64,000 nt of DNA, taken from Rhizobiales bacterium Ga0077524 (lineage in GTDB: Bacteria; Pseudomonadota; Alphaproteobacteria; Rhizobiales; Hyphomicrobiaceae). A model generated the notes under the pieces. That model saw only the letters and a program-made list of their open reading frames with translations. It had not been told where the DNA came from and did no database searches. The stretch spans positions 1 through 64,000 of the forward strand of contig LNDR01000415.1 of assembly GCA_001464755.1 (NCBI GenBank). The letters are read 5' to 3'. The translations under genes were made by a program, and so were the position numbers. Positions within the stretch are counted from its first letter, which is position 1; every line of letters starts with the position of its first letter. Shown piece by piece: positions 31,158-42,273 of the stretch.

Positions 31158-31232
31158 TGGAGCGGGCGAAGGGGATCGAACCCTCGACCCTCACGTTGGC
31201 AACGTGATGCTCTACCGCTGAGCTACACCCGC
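31158..31232 (-). tRNA. tRNA-Gly (anticodon GCC)
   Basis: Read on the minus strand the 75-base sequence starts GCGGGTGTAGCTCAGCGGTAGAGC and ends TTCGATCCCCTTCGCCCGCTCCA. The acceptor stem GCGGGTG/CGCCCGC pairs with one G-U. The anticodon arm TCACG-TTGCCAA-CGTGA shows anticodon GCC, decoding GGC and GGU. The T-loop TTCGATC is intact and CCA is encoded. A 7-bp GC hairpin lies upstream at 31246-31264, after the PurA-like gene. No duplicated 3' fragment that would mark an integrated element is visible in the window. Confidence 0.96.
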
Positions 31233-31298: not shown

Positions 31299-32582
31299 TC
31301 ACGATGCAAGTGCCTCCGAGCGCGGTAACGCTGCCGCTGCCGACCGAACGTCGCCGAACCGTGCGGCTCGCGTCTCGCGCTCGATCGTGGCCCGCGTGGG
31401 GCCTCGGCTCCGCAGCAGCAGCGCAGCCCCTACGGCATCCGCCGCGGCCGATGCGACATCCTCCGGCGACAGGTACCGCGCCGCTCCGCGCTCCCGGTAT
31501 TCCACCGCCCGGCCGACTTGATCGAGGCACGTCACCGCGAGGCCCAGGGAATGCGTGAGATCCGATCCGCCGAGGTCGTCGAGATCCGCACGGATCGCCC
31601 CGCTCAACAGATCGAGGTCCAGTGGCGCAAAGCGCAACGCCCCCTGCCATGAGTTGGCGATATTCGTCCGGTCGACGATGCCCGGATAGGGTGCGCCTGC
31701 GTAGGCATGGGCGAGAGGTCCAGCGCCATGCCGCGTCGTATAGATCCGCGTCGCATAGACGATATCGAGGTGCCCGATGCCGAGGTCACGAGCGAGGGAA
31801 ATCATGTTTTTGAGGCCGGTATTCGACCGCGTAACGTGCGGGAACGCGCCGCGATCCTGGTCGAGCAGCAAGCCTTGCGCACCCTCGAAAACGATCCCTC
31901 GCCCTGCGAGGCGTGGCCGCCCGATCGCCACCGCCTCGACGAAAGCCGCGACGTCCTGCAGCCATCGCTCCTCGATTGCCTCGGAATGCAGCAGGCTCCG
32001 CTCCTCCTCGGTGAGCGAGGCGACGCCGAGCCGGTGAAGCCGTGCCGAAACCCACGTCGCGCGCACCCGGCCGAGGATCATGCGCAGCCGCGGCTCGTCG
32101 ACCAGGTCGCCCGCGCGGACCACGAGGCCCGGCTGTTGGCTGCGCTCCATCGTTTCCCCGAGCCCGAGCCCGCAGCTCCCGTGGCGTGCCGCCCCCCTAG
32201 ACCTCTCGACGACCTGATTGATCATCATGTCAAAGGGGATTGTGACCGGAGCCGCCGGATCGATCATCAGTCGCGGCGCGACGCCCAGTGCACCGAGTGC
32301 GGCAAGCTCCTCCCGCAGTACGATCGGATGCGCCACGAAAAACCGTGACAGGAAGGTCGCGGCGCCCGCAAGCGCACCACTTCCCACGTGGTGAAAGACG
32401 TGCCTGCGCCCATCGGGCAGCTCGACCGTGTGGCCGGCCTGCGCGCCGCCATTGCTGCGAATGACGACCCCGTCGCTGCCGAGCGGCGCTGCCAGCGCAT
32501 CGGTCAGCAGCCCCTTCCCTTCGTCGCCGTAGGCCGCTCCGACGACAGCGGCGGCTGCGAACGTCTGCACAGACTTGCTCAT
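31299..32582 (-). CDS. Divergent adenylosuccinate synthetase (PurA) paralog
   Basis: PurA-superfamily GTP-dependent ligase, 427 residues. Retained: P-loop-like VVGAAYGDEGKGLLTD with the catalytic Asp (D20), SNGGAQAGHTV with the catalytic His (H51), FEGAQGLLLDQDRGAFPHVTRSNT, and YTTRHGAGPLAH. Changed: the IMP-loop TTGRGIGP becomes HGSCGLGLGET, and the aspartate-binding TTGRRRRTGW becomes RTNIANSWQGALRF. It keeps the GTP/catalytic core but probably uses a different amino donor or base, so it is unlikely to be the housekeeping enzyme. Start ATG 32582 with AGGAG ahead. Last gene of a J-pseudokinase/vWA/PurA-like operon, 29 bases after the vWA gene. Confidence 0.8.
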   Translation of the reverse strand: MSKSVQTFAAAAVVGAAYGDEGKGLLTDALAAPLGSDGVVIRSNGGAQAGHTVELPDGRRHVFHHVGSGALAGAATFLSRFFVAHPIVLREELAALGALGVAPRLMIDPAAPVTIPFDMMINQVVERSRGAARHGSCGLGLGETMERSQQPGLVVRAGDLVDEPRLRMILGRVRATWVSARLHRLGVASLTEEERSLLHSEAIEERWLQDVAAFVEAVAIGRPRLAGRGIVFEGAQGLLLDQDRGAFPHVTRSNTGLKNMISLARDLGIGHLDIVYATRIYTTRHGAGPLAHAYAGAPYPGIVDRTNIANSWQGALRFAPLDLDLLSGAIRADLDDLGGSDLTHSLGLAVTCLDQVGRAVEYRERGAARYLSPEDVASAAADAVGAALLLRSRGPTRATIERETRAARFGDVRSAAAALPRSEALAS

Positions 32583-32611: not shown

Positions 32612-33541
32612 TCAGCGGCCGAAAAAGTGGACGAGGCTTTGGCCTTTCGCGGGTGGCACGGGGGCCAGGCTTTTGACGGCACGCGCCACGGTCGCGCTGG
32701 TCGAGCCGCCCCACGAGCCCGAGACGGCGCGAGCATCGGCCCCTTCCGCCACCTGGATCGTCGACACGATCACCTCCGCGATCTTTGTGTGGTCGTCGCA
32801 GGCGATCACGCGCTGTCCGAGTAGCGGCCGCCAGGTCTCCATGACCTCGTCGGGATGCGAGGCCGCGTAGCCGACGTTGGTCAGCAAGACGTGGAACACC
32901 TCGTAGCTGCGCGCCGCCATCGCCAGCATCTCGGCGGAGGAGAGGTCACGCTCCACCGGCTTTCCGAGCACCCGGCCGAGGTTGCGCCGCGTGATGCCAC
33001 CGAGGATCGGCTCGTCGCCGATGGTGAAAAGGTAGCCCTTCCTGCCGCGCATCTCGAGGCAGTCGATCGAGGTCTGCATCGCCGCGAAGTACCAGGGGAG
33101 GTGATAGGATTCGCCCGCGTTGCCACCGCCGCCACCCTCGATCCACAGCTCCTTCAGCTGCTCGGCGAGCCGCACATCCGCCTCGAACTCGGTGGCCTGC
33201 AAGGGCGCCCGGTCGCATTCGGCATCGCCCACCGCCATCACCATCACATGCGGGTCCGTGACCGGACGGCGCGCATGGATCTCGCGCATCGTCGTGTCGA
33301 GACCACTGCGGATCATCACCTCGGCGATGGCGCCCATCGAGCCGGTGACGTCGCTCGCCAGGATGATCGCGGTCGATGCCGGGTTGTCGGGGCTGTCCCG
33401 CGATTCCCGCACGGTGATCGATGCCGGATCGAAACGGCTACTCATCCCGCGGGCCGCGAAGATCTCGTGGGCTGCCCTGCCCTTGGTCGTCCGGGCCGCG
33501 TAGCTCGCCCAGTCGCTCGCATCCCAACGTCCGTGTCCCAT
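32612..33541 (-). CDS. vWA-domain protein of the PurA-like/J-domain cluster
   Basis: 309-residue cytoplasmic protein built round a von Willebrand A fold. The metal site is ILASDVTGSMG (D64-x-T-x-S68, a Thr variant of DxSxS). An N-terminal signature precedes it (DWASYAARTTKGRAAHEIFAARG, then FDPASITVRESRDSPDNPAST). A Gly-rich loop follows (IEGGGGGNAGESYHLPWYFAA), and GYLFTIGDEPILGGIT. No signal peptide. vWA proteins commonly act as metal-dependent docking factors beside ATPases or kinases; here the partner may be the pseudokinase. Start at ATG 33541 with GAGGAG upstream; 11 bases after the J-domain gene and 29 before the PurA-like gene. Confidence 0.82.
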   Translation of the reverse strand: MGHGRWDASDWASYAARTTKGRAAHEIFAARGMSSRFDPASITVRESRDSPDNPASTAIILASDVTGSMGAIAEVMIRSGLDTTMREIHARRPVTDPHVMVMAVGDAECDRAPLQATEFEADVRLAEQLKELWIEGGGGGNAGESYHLPWYFAAMQTSIDCLEMRGRKGYLFTIGDEPILGGITRRNLGRVLGKPVERDLSSAEMLAMAARSYEVFHVLLTNVGYAASHPDEVMETWRPLLGQRVIACDDHTKIAEVIVSTIQVAEGADARAVSGSWGGSTSATVARAVKSLAPVPPAKGQSLVHFFGR

Positions 33542-33552
33542 GACGCAACTCC

Positions 33553-34614
33553 TCATCGTCTTGTGGCTAGGGGGGAGGGGTAGATGTCGCCGGCGGTGAC
33601 GCCGGTCTCCGAGAAGCGGCGTGGGCCGAAGCTCGCCTCGCGAGCAGCCTCCCAAGCCGCATAGTCCTCGTGCGCGGTGGGATGGGGCGCCGAGAGCACC
33701 CAGTCCGACAGGGCTGAAGGCACCTGCGGGTCAGTGCGCAGCCGTGTGCCGGAGCGATCGCCGAGGCATTCGCGGGCCGTCAGCCGGATCAGCTCGAGAT
33801 CGATTTCCGTCACGGCACGCCCGCCGTCGAGCGCGGTCGGCGGCATCAGTCTGAGCGTCCGTTCCGGCAGTGCGATCAGCGGTCGGGCTGTCCCGGTCGC
33901 GTACCACCACCCCCCGAGTAGTGCCACCCGGTGCGAGACGGGATCGACCAGGACGGTGTCGGGTCCGATCGCCCCATGCACCAGATCTTGCGTTCCGAGG
34001 TAGCAGGCGAGGTGCTCGAGCCCGCTGACGATCCAGGCGACATGGCGCGGCTCGATTCTGCCGCCGAGATGCTCGATGAAATCGGCAAGCAGCACCAGTT
34101 CCGGATCGCGCTCCAGGATGACGACGCGGAGATCTACCGTTTCCGTTACCGCTTGCACGCGCGGCAGCAGGCGCGCCAGCTCGCGGCGCATGGCGAGATC
34201 GGCAAAGCCGAGCGAGCGCATTCGGTCCACCGCGGCTTCCGCCAGCTCGCGCGCTTCGTGATGGATCGCAAAGGCCAGCGTCGAGCGCCCGACGTAGCAT
34301 ACCCCCAGCTCGAACGGCCGGACCCTGAGATACTTGAGCCGGAAATGTCGACCGTCGCGGGTAATCAGGTGCCGTTCGCCCGCACTGGGCCAGGTGCCGG
34401 CCTTGATCCTTGCCTGAGCTGCCTCCCGAAGCGCAACGAGGTGCTGGAAGGCGCGCGCCGCCTCGGCGTTGGCCGGATTGTTGTCGGGGTGGAACTGGGC
34501 GGCGAGGCGCCGCCACTGACCGCGAATGTCGTTTGGTGTGCCCGAGAAGATCAGCTCCGGCTGATCGAGTGGCACCGCCAGGACGGCTTCGGGAGATGTG
34601 TGCTCGTTGCTCAT
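33553..34614 (-). CDS. J-domain protein fused to a degenerate protein-kinase-like domain
   Basis: 353 residues. Residues about 20-65 form a J-domain with the essential HPD at 42-44 (WRRLAAQFHPDNNPANAEAARAFQHL), so it should stimulate an Hsp70. A kinase-like region follows. At the catalytic loop, consensus HRDLKPDN aligns without gaps to HGAIGPDT (213-220): Asp, Lys and Asn are all lost, and LLGGW sits where DFG is expected, so it is predicted to be a pseudokinase. It is first in the operon with vWA and PurA-like genes and is divergent from the NUDIX regulator. The start lies only 21 bases from the TTGCAAT array, and its Shine-Dalgarno is weak. The pseudokinase call is my inference from one loop. 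Confidence 0.72.
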   Translation of the reverse strand: MSNEHTSPEAVLAVPLDQPELIFSGTPNDIRGQWRRLAAQFHPDNNPANAEAARAFQHLVALREAAQARIKAGTWPSAGERHLITRDGRHFRLKYLRVRPFELGVCYVGRSTLAFAIHHEARELAEAAVDRMRSLGFADLAMRRELARLLPRVQAVTETVDLRVVILERDPELVLLADFIEHLGGRIEPRHVAWIVSGLEHLACYLGTQDLVHGAIGPDTVLVDPVSHRVALLGGWWYATGTARPLIALPERTLRLMPPTALDGGRAVTEIDLELIRLTARECLGDRSGTRLRTDPQVPSALSDWVLSAPHPTAHEDYAAWEAAREASFGPRRFSETGVTAGDIYPSPLATRR

Positions 34615-34634
34615 GCGACAGACTATAGCCTAGT

Positions 34635-34663
34635 AAATTGCAATTTGCAATTTGCAATTTAAA
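34635..34663. promoter_or_regulatory. Tandem palindromic TTGCAAT array between divergent operons
   Basis: AAA followed by three perfect copies of the 7-mer TTGCAAT, then TTTAAA; AAATTGCAATTT within it is a perfect 12-bp palindrome. It fills the centre of the 72-base gap between the J-pseudokinase gene and the NUDIX-winged-helix gene and stands out as AT-rich in GC-rich surroundings. Likely operator for the adjacent NrtR-type regulator, and possibly part of both promoters. Confidence 0.6.
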
Positions 34664-34686: not shown

Positions 34687-35358
34687 ATGGCCGAGCCGAT
34701 CGACTACGAGCGCCCCATTCTGACCATCGACGTGGTCCTCCTGACCCTTGGGCCGGAAGGCCTTCTGGTGGGGGTCCAGAAGCGCGAGGCCGAGCCGTTC
34801 CGGGGCACGATGGCTCTGATCGGCGGCTACGTTCACGTCGACGAGGACGCCGACACATTGGCCACGGCGCGGCGCGTGCTCGCGCAGAAGGCCGGGCTGA
34901 GCGGCATTTATTGCGAGCAGTTGATGACGTTCTCGGGCCCCCGGCGCGATCCTCGCGGGTGGGCTGCGACAGTCGCCTACTACGCGCTGGCGCCTGGCAA
35001 GCAGTTGGAGGCGGCCGGCGCGCGAGGTCTGGTCTGGCGCTCTGCCAATGATCCCGGGGCGCTGGCTTTCGACCATAACCTCATCGTGATCACCGCCATG
35101 GACCGGCTGCGCACGAAGGGCGCCTATTCAACCCTGCCGGCGTTCCTGTTGGCCGAGACGTTCACACTCTCCGAGTTGAGGTCGGTCTACGAGCGCGTCA
35201 TGGACACCTCGCTCAACGATAGCGCCTTCCGCCGGAAAATGGACGAACTGCGTATTCTCGAGCCGGTCGTCGGCGAGCGCAGCCGCGCCTCGGCTCGGCC
35301 GGCCCAGCTTTTCCAGCTTCGGCAGGATACGCTCCAGTCCTTCGACCGGCGGATTTAG
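34687..35358 (+). CDS. NrtR-type NUDIX/winged-helix regulator with degenerate NUDIX box
   Basis: 223 residues. The N-terminal NUDIX fold (DVVLLTLGPEGLLVGVQKREAEPFRG, then ALIGGYVHVDEDADTLATARRVLAQKAGL) lacks the paired catalytic glutamates: the consensus REUxEExGU reads RVLAQKAGL, with Q67-K68 in place of EE. The C-terminal winged helix (LLAETFTLSELRSVYERVMDTSLNDSAFRRKMDELRILEPV, then RPAQLFQL) is the signature DNA-binding half of NrtR-family regulators of NAD metabolism. NrtR proteins respond to ADP-ribose-like ligands, so this is probably a ligand-sensing repressor rather than a hydrolase. It is divergent from the J/vWA/PurA-like operon. Confidence 0.85.
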   Translation: MAEPIDYERPILTIDVVLLTLGPEGLLVGVQKREAEPFRGTMALIGGYVHVDEDADTLATARRVLAQKAGLSGIYCEQLMTFSGPRRDPRGWAATVAYYALAPGKQLEAAGARGLVWRSANDPGALAFDHNLIVITAMDRLRTKGAYSTLPAFLLAETFTLSELRSVYERVMDTSLNDSAFRRKMDELRILEPVVGERSRASARPAQLFQLRQDTLQSFDRRI

Positions 35359-35373: not shown

Positions 35374-36279
35374 CTACTCTCCGGGCCGGGGCGCGCTCAC
35401 CACGGGCACCACGTCAACCGCGACGTCGACGTGGTGCCGGCCGCCGCCGAGCAGAACACCGCTGATCGGGCTGATGTCGCCGTACTCTCGGCCGTAGGCG
35501 AAGGCGATGTGCTCGTCGCTGGGCATCAATCGGTTCGTCGGGTCGAAGTCCACCCAGCCGGTCTCCGGTGCCCACACCGAGAACCACGCGTGCGAGGCGT
35601 CCGCGCCCTGCATCCGCACCATGCCCGGCGGCGGCCGTGTGAGAATATACCCACTGACGTAGCGAGCCGAGATGCGGTGCGCCCGCAAGCACGCCAGTGC
35701 CAGATGCGCAAAATCCTGGCACACCCCGCGACGCTTCCGCAGCACCTCGATGGCCGGGGTCGACACGTCCGTCGCCTGGCTGTCGAATTCGAAGTCGTCA
35801 TAGATCCGGCACGTGAGATCCCACGCCACCGCCAGAACAGACCGTCCCGGTTGGGCGGACGGACGCGCATAGTCGAGTACGGCCGCGCCGGTCGCCGTTG
35901 CTGGCGACGGCAGCGCGTACTGTGCGACGTCGAGATCGGTGTCGTGATTGCGCCCGCCAGATCGCTGACGCGCCTCGTCCCAGGCTTTCCCGGCCTTGAC
36001 GTCGATCGGTCCGCGCGCCGCGACATCGATCGTGCTGCGTGCATGCATCACGAGTTCGCGATGCTCGTTGTCGATGCCAAGCACCGAGACGGGATTGCCA
36101 AAGTAGTCGGTGAAGTCGTGACGCCACGTCGGCGTCGGCTCGATCAGCAGCATGTGCCGCTGCACCGTTTGCCGGGCAACCGCGCGCGGCGCCAGGTGGA
36201 TCAGATGCTGCGACTGGGTAACGGTCGACTCGTAGCGGTAGGACGTCCGATGGCTCACCTCGTAGATCATGTTGCTCAC
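35374..36279 (-). CDS. Transglutaminase-like cysteine peptidase/amidase (copy 2 cluster)
   Basis: 301-residue cytoplasmic protein with a bacterial transglutaminase N-domain (YEVSHRTSYRYESTVTQSQHLIHLAPR) and a transglutaminase-like core. The catalytic triad is seen as Cys in RGVCQDFAHLALACLR, His in DASHAWFSVW and Asp in GWVDFDPTN. Members of this family accompany ATP-grasp and alpha-E proteins and may hydrolyse or transfer peptide bonds. GTG start at 36279 overlaps the stop of the ATP-grasp/alpha-E gene in GTGA, a strong sign of translational coupling. Tail to tail with the NUDIX regulator, 15 bases apart. Confidence 0.88.
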   Translation of the reverse strand: MSNMIYEVSHRTSYRYESTVTQSQHLIHLAPRAVARQTVQRHMLLIEPTPTWRHDFTDYFGNPVSVLGIDNEHRELVMHARSTIDVAARGPIDVKAGKAWDEARQRSGGRNHDTDLDVAQYALPSPATATGAAVLDYARPSAQPGRSVLAVAWDLTCRIYDDFEFDSQATDVSTPAIEVLRKRRGVCQDFAHLALACLRAHRISARYVSGYILTRPPPGMVRMQGADASHAWFSVWAPETGWVDFDPTNRLMPSDEHIAFAYGREYGDISPISGVLLGGGRHHVDVAVDVVPVVSAPRPGE

Positions 36280-38840
36280 GCCTCGTGGCGAAGCACGACG
36301 CGGTGCGGCTGGTCGTCGACAAGCCTGAAGTAGCGCCGCGAGATCGCATCGGAAAGTTCGGGCAGGTCCTTCAGCGCCTGCCGCAACAGGGTCGCCAACG
36401 CGGGGCGGACCTTGTCGGACCCCACGGTCGCAAGCTCGGTCACGTCGGCAAGCCGGATCGCGGTTTGCAGCGCCAGCACGATGCGACGTTCGCGCGTCAG
36501 CGCATTGCCGCCGGACTGCTGCGGCAGCGCCTCGAGATGGCGCATGAGACCCGCGACCTGATAGGCGACGCTTCTCGGGTTTGTCTCATCCATGACCAGC
36601 AGATCGAGCACGAGCGGCAGCATAGGCTGGAGACGGTAGCGCGATCGGTAGGTGATGTAGCTGTCGGCGAGCCGCAGTATGAAGTTCAGGTGCTCGTTGC
36701 TCTCATCCTCGCTCTGTCCGGCATGGAACAGCAGATGCAGCACGTCGCAGAGATTGTAGGCCCGCTCCAGCCGCCGTCCCATGTCGAGGAAGAACCAGCC
36801 GAAATTGCGGGTCATGTTCTCGTGCAAGTGCCCGCTGAAGGTCGCCACCAGCGATAGCTTGTCCTCGATCTCGTCCTGCAGTTCGCTGGCGCTTGCTTCA
36901 GCCATTCTGCGCCGCCACGTCTCGTCGACTCGGAACGAAGCCAGCGTCCGCCACGCTTCGAGTGACAACCGATCTCGGGTCAGGCTGGCAACCCGGTAGA
37001 TGCCATCGAACGAGTTGATCACGCTGTAGGTGCTGTCCCGCTCCGAGACCAGTTGCCCGGCGAGCGTCGCGGAGCGTCCTGACACCCGCCGCGACCCGGC
37101 CGGGATGCTGAGTGCGGCGCCCTTCGAGATCAGCATCTCGAGGCACACGTCCCCCGCGTGCCGGGTCGGGGCGGACTCGAGATATTCGAGTCGCCGGCCA
37201 AGGCTCGAGCGGATCACGCGCATCGTCCAGTCCGCTCGCTCGAGGTAGCGGCCGAGCCAGAACAGGTTGTCGGCGACGCGGCTCTGGAGTGTCCGCTGCG
37301 AGCGTTGCACCAGCGCCGATTCCAGGCGCGGGCGCCAAAGGCTCGAATGCGGTCGCTCGGGCTCGCTGGCCATCACCCAGACGTCGTGCGTCTCGCCGTC
37401 GGACGTGCTCAGCGCAACCGCCGTTTCTGCATCGACGCCCATCGCGAGCCCGCCGGGCATCACGCTGAAGCCATCGCTCGATGCCGCCGCGAACAGTCTC
37501 AGCCCGAAGGCTTTCTGCTGCAACCCCTGGCTGGTCAGCGACGGCATAGTGCCGAAACCGGCCCGTTGCTCGGCGACGAGGGCCTCGCCGTGACGCTTGA
37601 GGTCGATGATCAGCTGCGTGCGCTCGTCGGCCGAAAGAACGCCCGCCACGCGCCCTCTCACGGCTTGCCCTGGGCGGCCCGTGCCTTCGCTGGCGGGCCG
37701 TATCACGAACTCGTCGAGCCGATCCTCTACGTGCTGCCGGGCTGTCTCGTCGCCGAGCCACCAGCGCGGAGCGTCGTGCAGCATCAAGGCTTCTCCGAGC
37801 AACTCCTCGCAGAGCCCGGGCAGGTACGCACCGAGCGCGCGGTTCTCGATCACAGCCGAACCGATCGCGTTGATCATGAGTCCTGGAGACCGGCGACTGG
37901 CGTGGACCAGTCCTGAAGGCCCGAGGAAGCTCGACGGATCGAGTTCCAGTGGGTCGGCTTTGCCACCCTCGATGCAGCGCACCAGGAGATCGAGCTTTTT
38001 CAAGCCTTCCAGCGTCTTGAGAAACACCTCGTCGCCCACCACCCGGAGGTCGCCGCCTTCGACCAGCGCTAGGTCGAGGTACCGTGCGAGGTAGGCATGG
38101 CTGAAATAGTCGCCGTGCGCTGGGCCGGGCGTCAGCAGCGCGACCGTCGGGTCGCCGCGTCCCGAGCGCTCGGCGAGTGCCGACTGCAGATTGCTGAAAT
38201 GGGTCGAGATCCGTCGCGCGCGACACTCTGAGAAAAGATCGTCCGTCACGTCGGCATGCATCACACGGTTGGCCACCGCATAGCCGACGCCGGCCGGCGT
38301 CTCGGCATGATTGTCGATCACCCGCCAGCTTCCATCGTAGGATCGGGCGAGATCGGCCGCATAGAACTGGAGGTGTCCCTCCGCCGGCTGGATGCCTTGG
38401 CAGGCCCTCAGATAAGACGCATCGCCGAACACCAGGGTCGGCGGTATTTTGCCCCGCCTGAGCAGTCGCTGCGGGCCGTAGACGTCGGCAAGAATGGCGT
38501 TGAACAGCCGTGCCCTCTGGCTGATGGCCCGCTCGAGCCAGCTCCATTCGTCCGCCGAAAGGATCAGCGGCATCAGGTTGAGGCGCCACTGCTGTTGCGG
38601 CTTTTCGGGATCTGCAAACACGTCGTGAACGAGGCCCGTCTCGCGCACCTGGCGATCGAGCCGCGAGGCGCGTGCCAAGCGGTCCCGCGGCGTCAGCCGC
38701 CGCAAAGCGTGCAGAAACGTCGACCAATGCGGGCGCGGAGTCCGATCAGGCCCGACCAACTCGTCATAGGCGCCGCTGGCAGGGCAATATCCTTCGAGCA
38801 GATCCAACTCGCGTTCCTGCGTGTGGGCGTCGACCGTCAT
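36276..38840 (-). CDS. Fused circularly permuted ATP-grasp and alpha-E protein
   Basis: 854 residues. The N-terminal part (to about residue 470) is a circularly permuted ATP-grasp ligase: NAILADVYGPQRLLRRGKIPPTLVFG, WRVIDNHAETPAGVGYAVANR and TPGPAHGDYFSHAYLARYLDLALVEGGDL. The C-terminal part is an alpha-E domain (LQSRVADNLFWLGRYLERADWTMRVIRSSLG) of helical repeats. In the neighbouring cluster the same two domains are separate genes. ATP-grasp ligases of this type are predicted to form peptide or amide bonds. Start ATG 38840 (MTVDAHTQ); the track start is 20 codons upstream. Coupled to the downstream transglutaminase gene by a 4-base overlap. Confidence 0.85.
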   Translation of the reverse strand: MTVDAHTQERELDLLEGYCPASGAYDELVGPDRTPRPHWSTFLHALRRLTPRDRLARASRLDRQVRETGLVHDVFADPEKPQQQWRLNLMPLILSADEWSWLERAISQRARLFNAILADVYGPQRLLRRGKIPPTLVFGDASYLRACQGIQPAEGHLQFYAADLARSYDGSWRVIDNHAETPAGVGYAVANRVMHADVTDDLFSECRARRISTHFSNLQSALAERSGRGDPTVALLTPGPAHGDYFSHAYLARYLDLALVEGGDLRVVGDEVFLKTLEGLKKLDLLVRCIEGGKADPLELDPSSFLGPSGLVHASRRSPGLMINAIGSAVIENRALGAYLPGLCEELLGEALMLHDAPRWWLGDETARQHVEDRLDEFVIRPASEGTGRPGQAVRGRVAGVLSADERTQLIIDLKRHGEALVAEQRAGFGTMPSLTSQGLQQKAFGLRLFAAASSDGFSVMPGGLAMGVDAETAVALSTSDGETHDVWVMASEPERPHSSLWRPRLESALVQRSQRTLQSRVADNLFWLGRYLERADWTMRVIRSSLGRRLEYLESAPTRHAGDVCLEMLISKGAALSIPAGSRRVSGRSATLAGQLVSERDSTYSVINSFDGIYRVASLTRDRLSLEAWRTLASFRVDETWRRRMAEASASELQDEIEDKLSLVATFSGHLHENMTRNFGWFFLDMGRRLERAYNLCDVLHLLFHAGQSEDESNEHLNFILRLADSYITYRSRYRLQPMLPLVLDLLVMDETNPRSVAYQVAGLMRHLEALPQQSGGNALTRERRIVLALQTAIRLADVTELATVGSDKVRPALATLLRQALKDLPELSDAISRRYFRLVDDQPHRVVLRHEA

Positions 38841-38976
38841 GTCCCGGTTTTCCCGATTGTTCAGCGCGGAGACACGCCCGCGGCGCACCTTGCGTGGCAA
38901 TCTAGCCTACCCGAACTCCTGTGATGTTGCGCAAATGTCGCGGTTGGTTGAATTGCAACGATCAATGCCAAAAGGC

Positions 38977-41900
38977 TCAGCGACTGCGCCTCAAATCCAG
39001 CGTCAATGGGTAGTCGGGGTTGGGCGCCGTCGGGACGACCGGTCGCAGAGGCCCTGGTGAATGGCCCGTATCCTCGAACCGGGCGAGACGCCGACCTTCG
39101 GCCTCATAGGAGTTGACCGGAAACACCTCGAAGTTGCGCCCGCCGGGATGCGAGACGTGATAACGCGCCCCTCCGATGGACCGCCTTGACCACATATCGA
39201 CCACGTCGAACACCAACGGCACATGCGTAGGCACGGTCGGATGCAGCGCTGAGGGTGGCCACCAGGCCCGGTAACGCACGCCGGCAACTTTCTCGCCCCG
39301 CACCCCCGTCCCCGTCAGGGGCAACATGGCGCCATTGCAGGTCACCGCGTAGCGGTCGTCGGTTCCGCCGGAGACACGCACCTGCGCTCGTTCCAGCGAG
39401 CTGTCCACGTATCGGGCTGTCCCGCCGATCACGTTTTCCTCGCCGAGCACATGCCAGGGCTCGAGAGCCTGTCGAATCTCAACCGCGATCCCGCCGGCCT
39501 CGATGGTCCCGTAGCGCGGAAAACGAAACTCCAAGTGCGGCAGGAACCACGCGGCCTCGATCGGGAAGCCGGCATCCCGGATGTCGCCGATCACATCCAG
39601 GAAATCCGTCCAGACGAAATGCGGCAGCATGAACCGGTCGTGCAGGGCGGTGCCCCATCTCACCAGCCCGTTGCGGTAGGGCCGCTCCCAGAACCGCGCA
39701 ATCAGCGCGCGCAGCAGCAGTTGCTGGGCGAGACTCATGCGCGCGTGCGGCGGCATTTCGAATGAGCGGAACTCGACGAGGCCCAGCCGCCCCGTTGGCC
39801 CTTCCGGCGAGTAGAGCTTGTCGATACAGATCTCGGAACGATGCGTGTTGCCGGTGGAATCGACCAACAGGTTGCGGAAGATGCGGTCGACCAGCCACGG
39901 CGGCACTGTGCCCGCAACCGGGTCGGGGATCTGCGCGAGCGCGATCTCCATTTCGTAGAGGCTCTCGTGGCGCGCCTCGTCGATGCGTGGAGCCTGGCTT
40001 GTCGGACCAATGAACAGCCCCGAAAACAGATACGAAAGCGATGGATGATTTTGCCAGTAGGCGATGATGCTGGCGAGGAGGTCGGGGCGCCGCAGGAACG
40101 GACTGTCCTGCGGGGTCCGCCCGCCGAGCACGATGTGGTTGCCGCCGCCGGTGCCGGTGTGGCGGCCATCCAGCATGAACTTCTCGGTTCCAAGCCGCGA
40201 CAGGTGCGCTTCCTCGTAGAGCGCCGTCGTGATCGTCACTGCCTCGTCCCAGCTCCCCGCCGGCTGCACGTTCACCTCGATCACACCCGGGTCCGGTGTC
40301 ACCTTGATCACGTTGAGGCGCGGATCATTTGGCGGCGTGTAGCCCTCGACGTGCACGGGAAGCCCCGTCTTGCGCGCCGCTTCCTCCACGGCCGCGATCA
40401 GTGCGGCATAGTCGTCGGCATCCTCGAGCGGCGGCATGAACACGCAAAGATGCCCGTCGCGAGGCTCGACGGTCAGCGCGGTCCGGACGCTGCCCCCGAC
40501 GTCACTTGGCGCCGCGGGCGTTACTTGCGACGCATCCGCGAGGCCGCTGCGTCGGCGCTGCATCAACGTCTGCCGCTCCTGCAGTGGCGGTGCCGCATCG
40601 AATGGATCGCGCGGCACCACCTGCGGCGTCTCCAGCGGCGGAAGATAGGGCAGCGATCCGAGCGGCAACCTGAATCCGGCCGGCGAGTCGCCAGGAATGA
40701 GGAACAGCTTGTCGCGCCTGAGCGACCACCGCTCCGTCACCCAGCGTCGCTTGCGGTCGCGCGTTTGCCAGGCTTGAATCGGCAGCACGAAGCTGACCGG
40801 CGCTTCGAGGCCGCGATCAAACACGGAGATGAGCCGCTTTCGCTCGGCGGGATCCGCGAGCTTGTTTTCCGCCGGCGTCGTGCTGATCGGCAGCTTCTGC
40901 TCGATCAGGACGAAGTGACCGGTGTCCTCGTAGGCTGGTAGTGCGCTCGCAGACGGAAGATCCAGCTCTTCGCAGAGGTTGGCCGCGAACGTCTCCGCCT
41001 CCGCGATGCTCGGCGTTCTGGTCGTCACCTCGCGCGCGATCAGCGCTTGGTCTTCCCAGAGCGGCTGGGCGTCCGCCCGCCAATAGAGCGCGAATGCCCA
41101 GCGAGGCAACTGCTCGCCCGGGTACCATTTGCCTTGCCCGTAATGCAGCAGCCCGCCCGGCGCGAACCGCCGCTCCAGGCGCCGCACGAGGTCTTCGGCA
41201 AGGCGCCGCTTCGTCGGCCCGACAGCGGCTGTGCTCCACTCCGCGCCGTCCATGTCGTCCACCGAGACGAAGGTCGGCTCGCCGCCCATCGTCAGGCGCA
41301 CGTCACCATCCGATAGACGGCGGTCGACGGCATGGCCGACGTCGAGAATTCGCGCCCACTGCTCGTCCGAGTAGGGCTTCGTGACGCGCGGGCTCTCTGC
41401 GATGCGTGCCACGCTCATGTCGAACGCGAACGTCACCTCTGCCTTCTCGTGGCTGCCGCTGATCGGCGCCGCGCTCGATGGCGCCGGTGTCGCAGCGAGC
41501 GGGATGTGTCCTTCGCCCGTCAGCAGGCCCGACGTTGGGTCGAGCCCGATCCACCCCGCCCCCGCTACGTAGATCTCGGTCCAAGCATGCAGGTCCGTGA
41601 AGTCGCTCTCGGCCCCCGAAGGCCCGTCCAGCGACTTCACGTCGGGAACGAGCTGGATCAGATAGCCCGAGACGAAGCGCGCTGCGAGGCCGAGGTGCCG
41701 CGCGATCTGCACGAGCAGCCAGCCCGAGTCGCGGCACGAGCCGGCCGCCTTGCCGAGCGTCTCCTCCGGGGTCTGCACACCCGGCTCCATCCGGATCAGG
41801 TACTTGATGTCCTGCTGCAACTGGCGATTGAGGTCGCACAGGAAATCGATCGTGGTGCGGGGCGTGCGGTCGATGCCCGCGAGATAGGCAGCGAGCCGCG

Positions 41901-42273
41901 GCCCAGCTGGGTCCGGAATGAGATACGGCTGCAACTCCTTGGCAAGGCCCGCCTCGTAGGCGAACGGCCACTCCGTCGACCCTTCCTCCATGAAGAAGTC
42001 GAAAGGATTGATCACCGCCATGTCGGCCACGAGATCGACGGTGACCGAAAGCTCTCGCGTCTTCTCGGGAATGACGACACGCGCCAGGAAATTGCCGAAC
42101 GGGTCCTGCTGCCAGTTCAGGAAATGCAGTTTCGGCTCGAGCGTCAAGCTGTAGCTGAGGATGGGTGTCCGGCAGTGTGGCGCTGGGCGAAGCCGGATCA
42201 CCTGCGGAGAGACGCCGATCAGACGGTCGTAGGTGTAGCTGGTGCGGTGGGTGAGCGCGACGTTGAGCGTCAT
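38977..42273 (-). CDS. Large transglutaminase/DUF2126 protein
   Basis: 1098 residues. The N-terminal transglutaminase-like region starts like the smaller copy (VALTHRTSYTYDRLIGVSPQVIRLRPAP). Its triad is Cys in AGSCRDSGWLLVQIARHLGLA, His in DLHAWTEIYV and Asp in GLDPTSG. The remaining 800 residues form the DUF2126 region, with LTMGGEPTFVSVDDMDGAEW, GQGKWYPGEQLPRWAFALYWR and GGGNHIVLGGRTPQDSPFLRRPDLLAS, the last of which resembles a carboxylate-amine ligase core. Fusion of a protease-like and a ligase-like half suggests both making and trimming of the same amide bond. It lies between the two ATP-grasp genes on the same strand, 52 bases after the alpha-E gene. Confidence 0.88.
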   Translation of the reverse strand: MTLNVALTHRTSYTYDRLIGVSPQVIRLRPAPHCRTPILSYSLTLEPKLHFLNWQQDPFGNFLARVVIPEKTRELSVTVDLVADMAVINPFDFFMEEGSTEWPFAYEAGLAKELQPYLIPDPAGPRLAAYLAGIDRTPRTTIDFLCDLNRQLQQDIKYLIRMEPGVQTPEETLGKAAGSCRDSGWLLVQIARHLGLAARFVSGYLIQLVPDVKSLDGPSGAESDFTDLHAWTEIYVAGAGWIGLDPTSGLLTGEGHIPLAATPAPSSAAPISGSHEKAEVTFAFDMSVARIAESPRVTKPYSDEQWARILDVGHAVDRRLSDGDVRLTMGGEPTFVSVDDMDGAEWSTAAVGPTKRRLAEDLVRRLERRFAPGGLLHYGQGKWYPGEQLPRWAFALYWRADAQPLWEDQALIAREVTTRTPSIAEAETFAANLCEELDLPSASALPAYEDTGHFVLIEQKLPISTTPAENKLADPAERKRLISVFDRGLEAPVSFVLPIQAWQTRDRKRRWVTERWSLRRDKLFLIPGDSPAGFRLPLGSLPYLPPLETPQVVPRDPFDAAPPLQERQTLMQRRRSGLADASQVTPAAPSDVGGSVRTALTVEPRDGHLCVFMPPLEDADDYAALIAAVEEAARKTGLPVHVEGYTPPNDPRLNVIKVTPDPGVIEVNVQPAGSWDEAVTITTALYEEAHLSRLGTEKFMLDGRHTGTGGGNHIVLGGRTPQDSPFLRRPDLLASIIAYWQNHPSLSYLFSGLFIGPTSQAPRIDEARHESLYEMEIALAQIPDPVAGTVPPWLVDRIFRNLLVDSTGNTHRSEICIDKLYSPEGPTGRLGLVEFRSFEMPPHARMSLAQQLLLRALIARFWERPYRNGLVRWGTALHDRFMLPHFVWTDFLDVIGDIRDAGFPIEAAWFLPHLEFRFPRYGTIEAGGIAVEIRQALEPWHVLGEENVIGGTARYVDSSLERAQVRVSGGTDDRYAVTCNGAMLPLTGTGVRGEKVAGVRYRAWWPPSALHPTVPTHVPLVFDVVDMWSRRSIGGARYHVSHPGGRNFEVFPVNSYEAEGRRLARFEDTGHSPGPLRPVVPTAPNPDYPLTLDLRRSR

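Follow-up and report, generated by a model that had tools for sequence, protein, structure and literature searches.

A J-domain/pseudokinase fusion of bacteria and phages whose conserved operon also encodes a vWA protein and a divergent PurA paralog

Genes and features at the locus

The window analyzed here is a stretch of 64,000 nucleotides at the start of contig LNDR01000415.1 of Rhizobiales bacterium Ga0077524. Near its center lies an operon whose first gene encodes a J-domain joined to a degenerate kinase domain, followed by genes for a von Willebrand factor A (vWA) protein and a divergent PurA paralog, while a gene for an NrtR-like NUDIX regulator is transcribed in the opposite direction (Table 1). 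The first gene (hereafter J-pseudokinase) is present as a single copy in the 5.1-Mb, 415-contig assembly. Beyond the regulator, positions 35374-42273 encode a transglutaminase-like protein (Pfam Bact_transglu_N and Transglut_core) and two long neighboring genes, which we take to resemble an alpha-E/circularly permuted ATP-grasp and transglutaminase cluster. On the other side, a tRNA-Gly at 31158 was considered as an integration site and rejected, since the window shows neither a second copy of its 3' end nor a change in GC content.

Table 1 Features of the J-pseudokinase locus in the window
Feature	Position	Strand	Evidence
PurA-like paralog, likely start ATG at 32582, 29 bp past the vWA gene	31299..32582	-	Pfam Adenylsucc_synt 1.9e-42
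vWA protein, 309 aa, begins 11 bp past the J-pseudokinase stop	32612..33541	-	AlphaFold pLDDT 93; Foldseek
J-domain/pseudokinase gene, 353 aa, first gene of the operon	33553..34614	-	ATG start
Pseudokinase domain (about residues 78-340)	33595..34383	-	AlphaFold; Foldseek kinases; profile vs kinases
DFG position, reads G-W-W (residues 235-237)	33904..33912	-	W236 in 94/99, Asp at 235 in 3/99 relatives
Degenerate catalytic loop HGAIGPDT (residues 213-220)	33955..33978	-	
J-domain (about residues 20-75)	34390..34557	-	Pfam DnaJ 6.2e-6; PDB DnaJ chains
HPD (residues 42-44)	34483-34491	-	H and D each in 88/99 relatives
Predicted promoter TTGCAA-17-TATAGT, -35 within the operator repeats	34622..34650	-	Consensus scan only
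Predicted operator AAATTGCAATTTGCAATTTGCAATTTAAA, TTGCAA repeats, between the J-pseudokinase and NrtR-like genes	34634..34663	.	Genome scan
Divergent NrtR-like regulator (NUDIX + winged helix)	34687..35358	+	NrtR_WHD 1e-16; NCBIfam NtrR-like 1.7e-42, below cut-off

A J-domain followed by a predicted kinase fold

When the window protein was searched singly, its sequence matches in the PDB were exclusively J-domains, its Pfam DnaJ score of 26.7 bits narrowly missed the gathering cut-off of 27.8, and Pfam returned no kinase match. The intact HPD reported by the initial annotation was borne out by the translated reading frame, and in the predicted structure it sits in the loop between helices II and III (residues 27-41 and 50-71), the arrangement typical of a J-domain motif.

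An AlphaFold2 model built from 74 family sequences reached a pLDDT of 94.1 and a pTM of 0.84, with pLDDT values mostly >95 in the kinase region, and showed the J-domain helices followed by a bilobal protein-kinase fold with the kinase order of strands and helices. When this model was compared to the PDB with Foldseek, the DNAJB1-PRKACA (J-PKAc) chimeras ranked first (E 1e-7), ahead of Aurora, TAO3, NIK, and others, and 1417 matches were found at E<=1e-3, with target-normalized TM-scores of up to about 0.5-0.66. Hence residues 70-340, for which the initial annotation had staked its reading beforehand on a kinase fold, were found to adopt one in both the AlphaFold model and the Foldseek comparison. 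A profile search against protein kinases, also proposed there, gave the same answer when the 74-sequence family profile was used, with matches to DnaJ chains (2e-8) and to the kinase chain STK33 (2.8e-7), whereas the single-sequence search had not detected kinases. Together, profile and model display the N-lobe sheet, alphaC, alphaE, and alphaF of the kinase superfamily, and thereby support a predicted architecture in which a J-domain precedes a kinase fold.

Family-wide loss of kinase motifs

We then evaluated motif retention across 99 near-full-length relatives from Pseudomonadota, Firmicutes, other bacteria, and phages. The His and Asp of HPD were kept at the frequency given in Table 1, the structural kinase positions were similarly well preserved (HRD His in 89/99 and alphaF Asp in 91/99), and a family-specific Trp, W194, was found in 97/99, alongside W236. 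Meanwhile, the catalytic Asp was lost in 82 relatives and retained in 17, Asn was retained in 25, and the DFG position mostly read G-W-W. Catalytic Asp and Asn occurred together in two relatives, both without the DFG Asp, and a complete catalytic set, as expected of an active kinase, was seen in none of the 99. The window protein itself lacks the HRD Asp, the catalytic Lys and Asn, the DFG Asp, and the beta3 Lys (the last at a position inferred from the alignment). The gap-free pairing of HRDLKPDN with H213-G-A-I-G-P-D-T220, in which Asp, Lys, and Asn disappear together, had been proposed initially and held; the family profile, the homologs, and the predicted structure ruled out an artifact or chance match. 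The recurrence of motif loss across 99 relatives points to a pseudokinase family rather than one decayed gene, so that the likely non-catalytic character first assigned to this single protein appears to extend to the family as a kinase fold without catalytic motifs.

The former active site is nevertheless not featureless, and two functions for it were weighed. The first is catalysis by a non-canonical chemistry, in the manner of SelO-type pseudokinases, which AMPylate. Conservation of the cleft residues exceeds what would be expected for a pure scaffold, and the HRD Asp persists in the minority counted above, but a conserved acidic residue is absent at both metal-binding positions (Asn and DFG Asp) and no relative carries the full catalytic set, making this reading quite improbable. 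Alternatively, the domain could act as a ligand sensor whose altered cleft binds either a nucleotide or what the PurA-like enzyme produces and gates the J-domain. Preservation of the fold, a former active site surrounded by strongly conserved residues (W236/W237, G235, P225, and H228), and the link of the operon to nucleotide metabolism are all in line with a sensor, which we still consider unlikely: the glycine loop and the inferred beta3 Lys position are not conserved in the alignment of relatives, nor are the DFG Asp and Asn, and ordinary Mg-ATP binding is therefore improbable. The same losses at beta3, the glycine loop, and DFG divide the initial suggestion of a nucleotide- or partner-binding module, weakening its nucleotide half and leaving partner binding as the likelier role.

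Distribution of the family

Scanning genome contigs and searching the order returned either J-domain matches or nothing, as might be expected of a lone orphan gene; this possibility was dismissed once plasmid and vWA-based searches recovered the family. With tblastn, near-full-length relatives at 31-42% identity were identified on eight alphaproteobacterial plasmids, and others at 25% identity in the mycobacteriophages Colt and Blubba, where the gene is annotated as a serine/threonine kinase. The Colt protein scored 35.9 against Pfam Pkinase, above the cut-off of 31.7, and also matched DnaJ weakly. Using the more conserved vWA (hypothetical) protein as bait yielded 80 bacterial and 80 viral loci, and a total of 102 J-pseudokinase relatives was retained after duplicate removal. 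Both proteins are rare and patchy, the J-pseudokinase being detected in 3 of 385 genomes of the class and the vWA protein in 6 of 399 genomes of the phylum. No published description of the J-pseudokinase fusion or its operon was found in the open-licence literature, and the family is apparently both widespread in bacteria and phages and undescribed. In ten loci from Clostridia, mostly Lachnospiraceae (L107, L109, L110, L112, L114, L116, and L118-L121), the pseudokinase and operon are kept and the recognizable HPD/J-domain is lost; two of these (L118 and L120) have a separate, weak J-domain-like ORF upstream.

A conserved operon with vWA and PurA-like partners

The order J-pseudokinase, vWA protein, divergent PurA paralog, often with an NrtR-like NUDIX gene adjacent, is a recurrent one. 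This operon context, the phage homologs, and the spread of the motif loss through the family go beyond what the initial annotation noted. Annotated records repeat it as J-kinase, hypothetical protein, and PurA-like protein, with a divergent NUDIX/NrtR-like gene on Agrobacterium/Allorhizobium plasmids. Across the neighborhoods of 173 loci, a PurA-like gene was found in 150, usually in the +1 (downstream) position, a J-pseudokinase in about 93 (main cluster), usually at -1 just upstream of the vWA gene, and an NrtR-like NUDIX protein in 51. Rhizobium and many phage loci encode the vWA and PurA-like pair without a J-pseudokinase; genes at position -1 of such phage loci showed no profile similarity that would mark them as hidden homologs, and a recurrent nine-locus cluster near NrtR, which resembled antisense ORFs, was not similar to any operon protein. 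Since the gene is missing from some operons and HPD is lost in Lachnospiraceae, the J-pseudokinase is best seen as an accessory subunit rather than the catalytic core. Pairwise distances of the three operon proteins are correlated (r 0.87, 0.91, and 0.86 across 79 loci), an expected pattern that any co-inherited operon would give. Decayed copies were also observed: the vWA gene is interrupted on the Methylorubrum extorquens AM1 megaplasmid (L030:9030-9300), and the vWA frame of Rhodovulum sp. MB263 continues into sequence resembling a TonB receptor (L033:8973-10086).

Neither Pfam nor PDB sequence searches gave a match for the vWA protein. Foldseek matched its model to the vWA domains of integrin beta-I and Ku80, and in its MIDAS, DVTGS, the D, T, G, and S of D-x-T-G-S are invariant in the family. 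For the PurA-like protein, the equivalents of Asp13, Lys16, His41, and Gln224 (numbering that we take to follow E. coli PurA) are kept in nearly all 139 members and the GTP/phosphoryl-transfer core is intact, while the IMP and aspartate pockets are altered throughout the family (T129 to Cys, N38 to Gln, and a new Asp-loop). It is not the sole purA of the genome, as a canonical purA sits on another contig, nor is it PurZ, scoring 44.5 bits against a family cut-off of 300; it likewise stays below the PurA cut-off (116 vs 396). With its core kept, its pockets replaced, and a canonical purA elsewhere, this paralog probably has a different substrate from that of canonical PurA. Separately, 10 viral contigs (L200:9288-10679 and nine others) carry a NAMPT/NAPRTase-like (NadV) gene close to the vWA and PurA-like genes, a hint that the pair may be connected with NAD or pyridine nucleotides.

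A candidate operator between the divergent genes

The predicted operator is present once in the genome, and TTGCAATTTGCAA sites occur nowhere else in it. The predicted -10 ends 8 bp upstream of the J-pseudokinase start codon (34614-34650), so that a leaderless operon transcript is possible. In the 40 loci where the NrtR gene is divergent, 63 TTGCA-type motifs were seen upstream of the operon vs 4.2 expected, a somewhat optimistic enrichment given that the motif was picked after viewing the window and some other loci, although the window supplies only 6 of the 63. Where NrtR was not divergent (125 loci), motifs were hardly enriched, with 31 vs 24.9 expected. This distribution is consistent with repression of the operon by the NrtR-like protein at the candidate operator.

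Relation to known systems and possible function

J-domain proteins and pseudokinases are both established protein types, and the operon that brings them together here is possibly an undescribed system. Class C J-domain proteins likewise combine a J-domain carrying HPD with a specialized module, but here that module is a kinase fold free of catalytic residues and encoded with vWA and PurA-like partners. J-PKAc of fibrolamellar carcinoma shares the domain order; however, it arises somatically in humans and its kinase is active, whereas the window family is an inherited pseudokinase found in bacteria and phages. Another relative is phrog_3043 from Bixzunavirus mycobacteriophages (Colt gp251), a full-length homolog that shares the three-gene order and about 23-25% identity with the window protein, which itself matches this "kinase" family at 2e-8 over residues 183-239; the phage protein is labeled a serine/threonine kinase yet lacks the catalytic Asp and Lys. 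Compared with PurA and PurZ, the third gene of the operon has the phosphoryl-transfer core of PurA and replaced IMP/Asp pockets.

Inactive kinases also accompany vWA-MoxR conflict systems (Kaur et al. 2020, PMC7159879), in which, as here, a dead kinase domain is genetically linked to a vWA protein, and both J-domains and vWA-MoxR pairs occur in jumbo phages (PMC7824862). These systems differ from the window operon in carrying a MoxR ATPase: no ATPase, and so no MoxR AAA+ protein beside vWA, was found among the recurrent neighbors, PurA-like and NrtR-like proteins are found instead, and the chaperone link would be to Hsp70 through the J-domain. An AAA ATPase was annotated only beyond the operon, on A. 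vitis/ampelinum plasmids; the Agrobacterium vitis set of AAA ATPase, DUF5682, and DUF4132 genes (L031:11421-16996) directly past the operon is perhaps an adjoining vWA-MoxR-type system. The resemblance to conflict systems, the patchy distribution, the carriage on plasmids and phages, and the NadV-like genes near viral loci would all fit an operon serving phage-bacteria conflict (defence or counter-defence), with the J-pseudokinase as a recognition or regulatory part. Such a role has a low probability in our assessment, since NadV is common in large phages, the conserved members include no toxin-like effector, and PADLOC returned no match for the J-pseudokinase, vWA, or PurA-like proteins.

We favor instead, with roughly even confidence, a non-catalytic cochaperone or scaffold that recruits Hsp70 to the vWA/PurA-like pair, produced from an NrtR-like-repressed operon. 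The near-constant pairing with the same two partner genes suggests a scaffold of a nucleotide-handling machine, and the retention of HPD while the catalytic set is lost, along with that of structural kinase residues, W194, and W236, argues for it; counted against it are the Lachnospiraceae operons without HPD, which imply that DnaK recruitment is not always needed, the Rhizobium and phage loci that do without the gene, and the 17 members with a catalytic Asp. Under this scaffold model, the J-pseudokinase would be made together with its vWA and PurA-like partners, and the dead kinase fold would act as a client-binding module docking on either partner or both. The J-domain, whose conserved HPD points to recruitment of Hsp70, would then bring host DnaK to assemble, remodel, or release the complex, in which the PurA-like protein may use GTP to drive a ligation on a nucleotide that is purine-like or related, unlike the reaction of IMP with Asp. 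More tentatively, and rather doubtful as a whole, the four genes may form a bacterial and phage system in which the J-pseudokinase brings Hsp70 to the vWA/PurA-like complex, in the place that the MoxR ATPase has elsewhere among vWA systems, while the complex produces a novel modified nucleotide that the NrtR-like repressor senses.

The present analysis corrects the "kinase" label carried by the phage homologs and flags a conserved operon around a PurA paralog. If the scaffold model is true, this family would represent a naturally inherited fusion of a J-domain and a kinase fold, in which phages and distant bacterial phyla alike have retained a dead kinase, and it would offer a direct test of pseudokinases as Hsp70 client adaptors.
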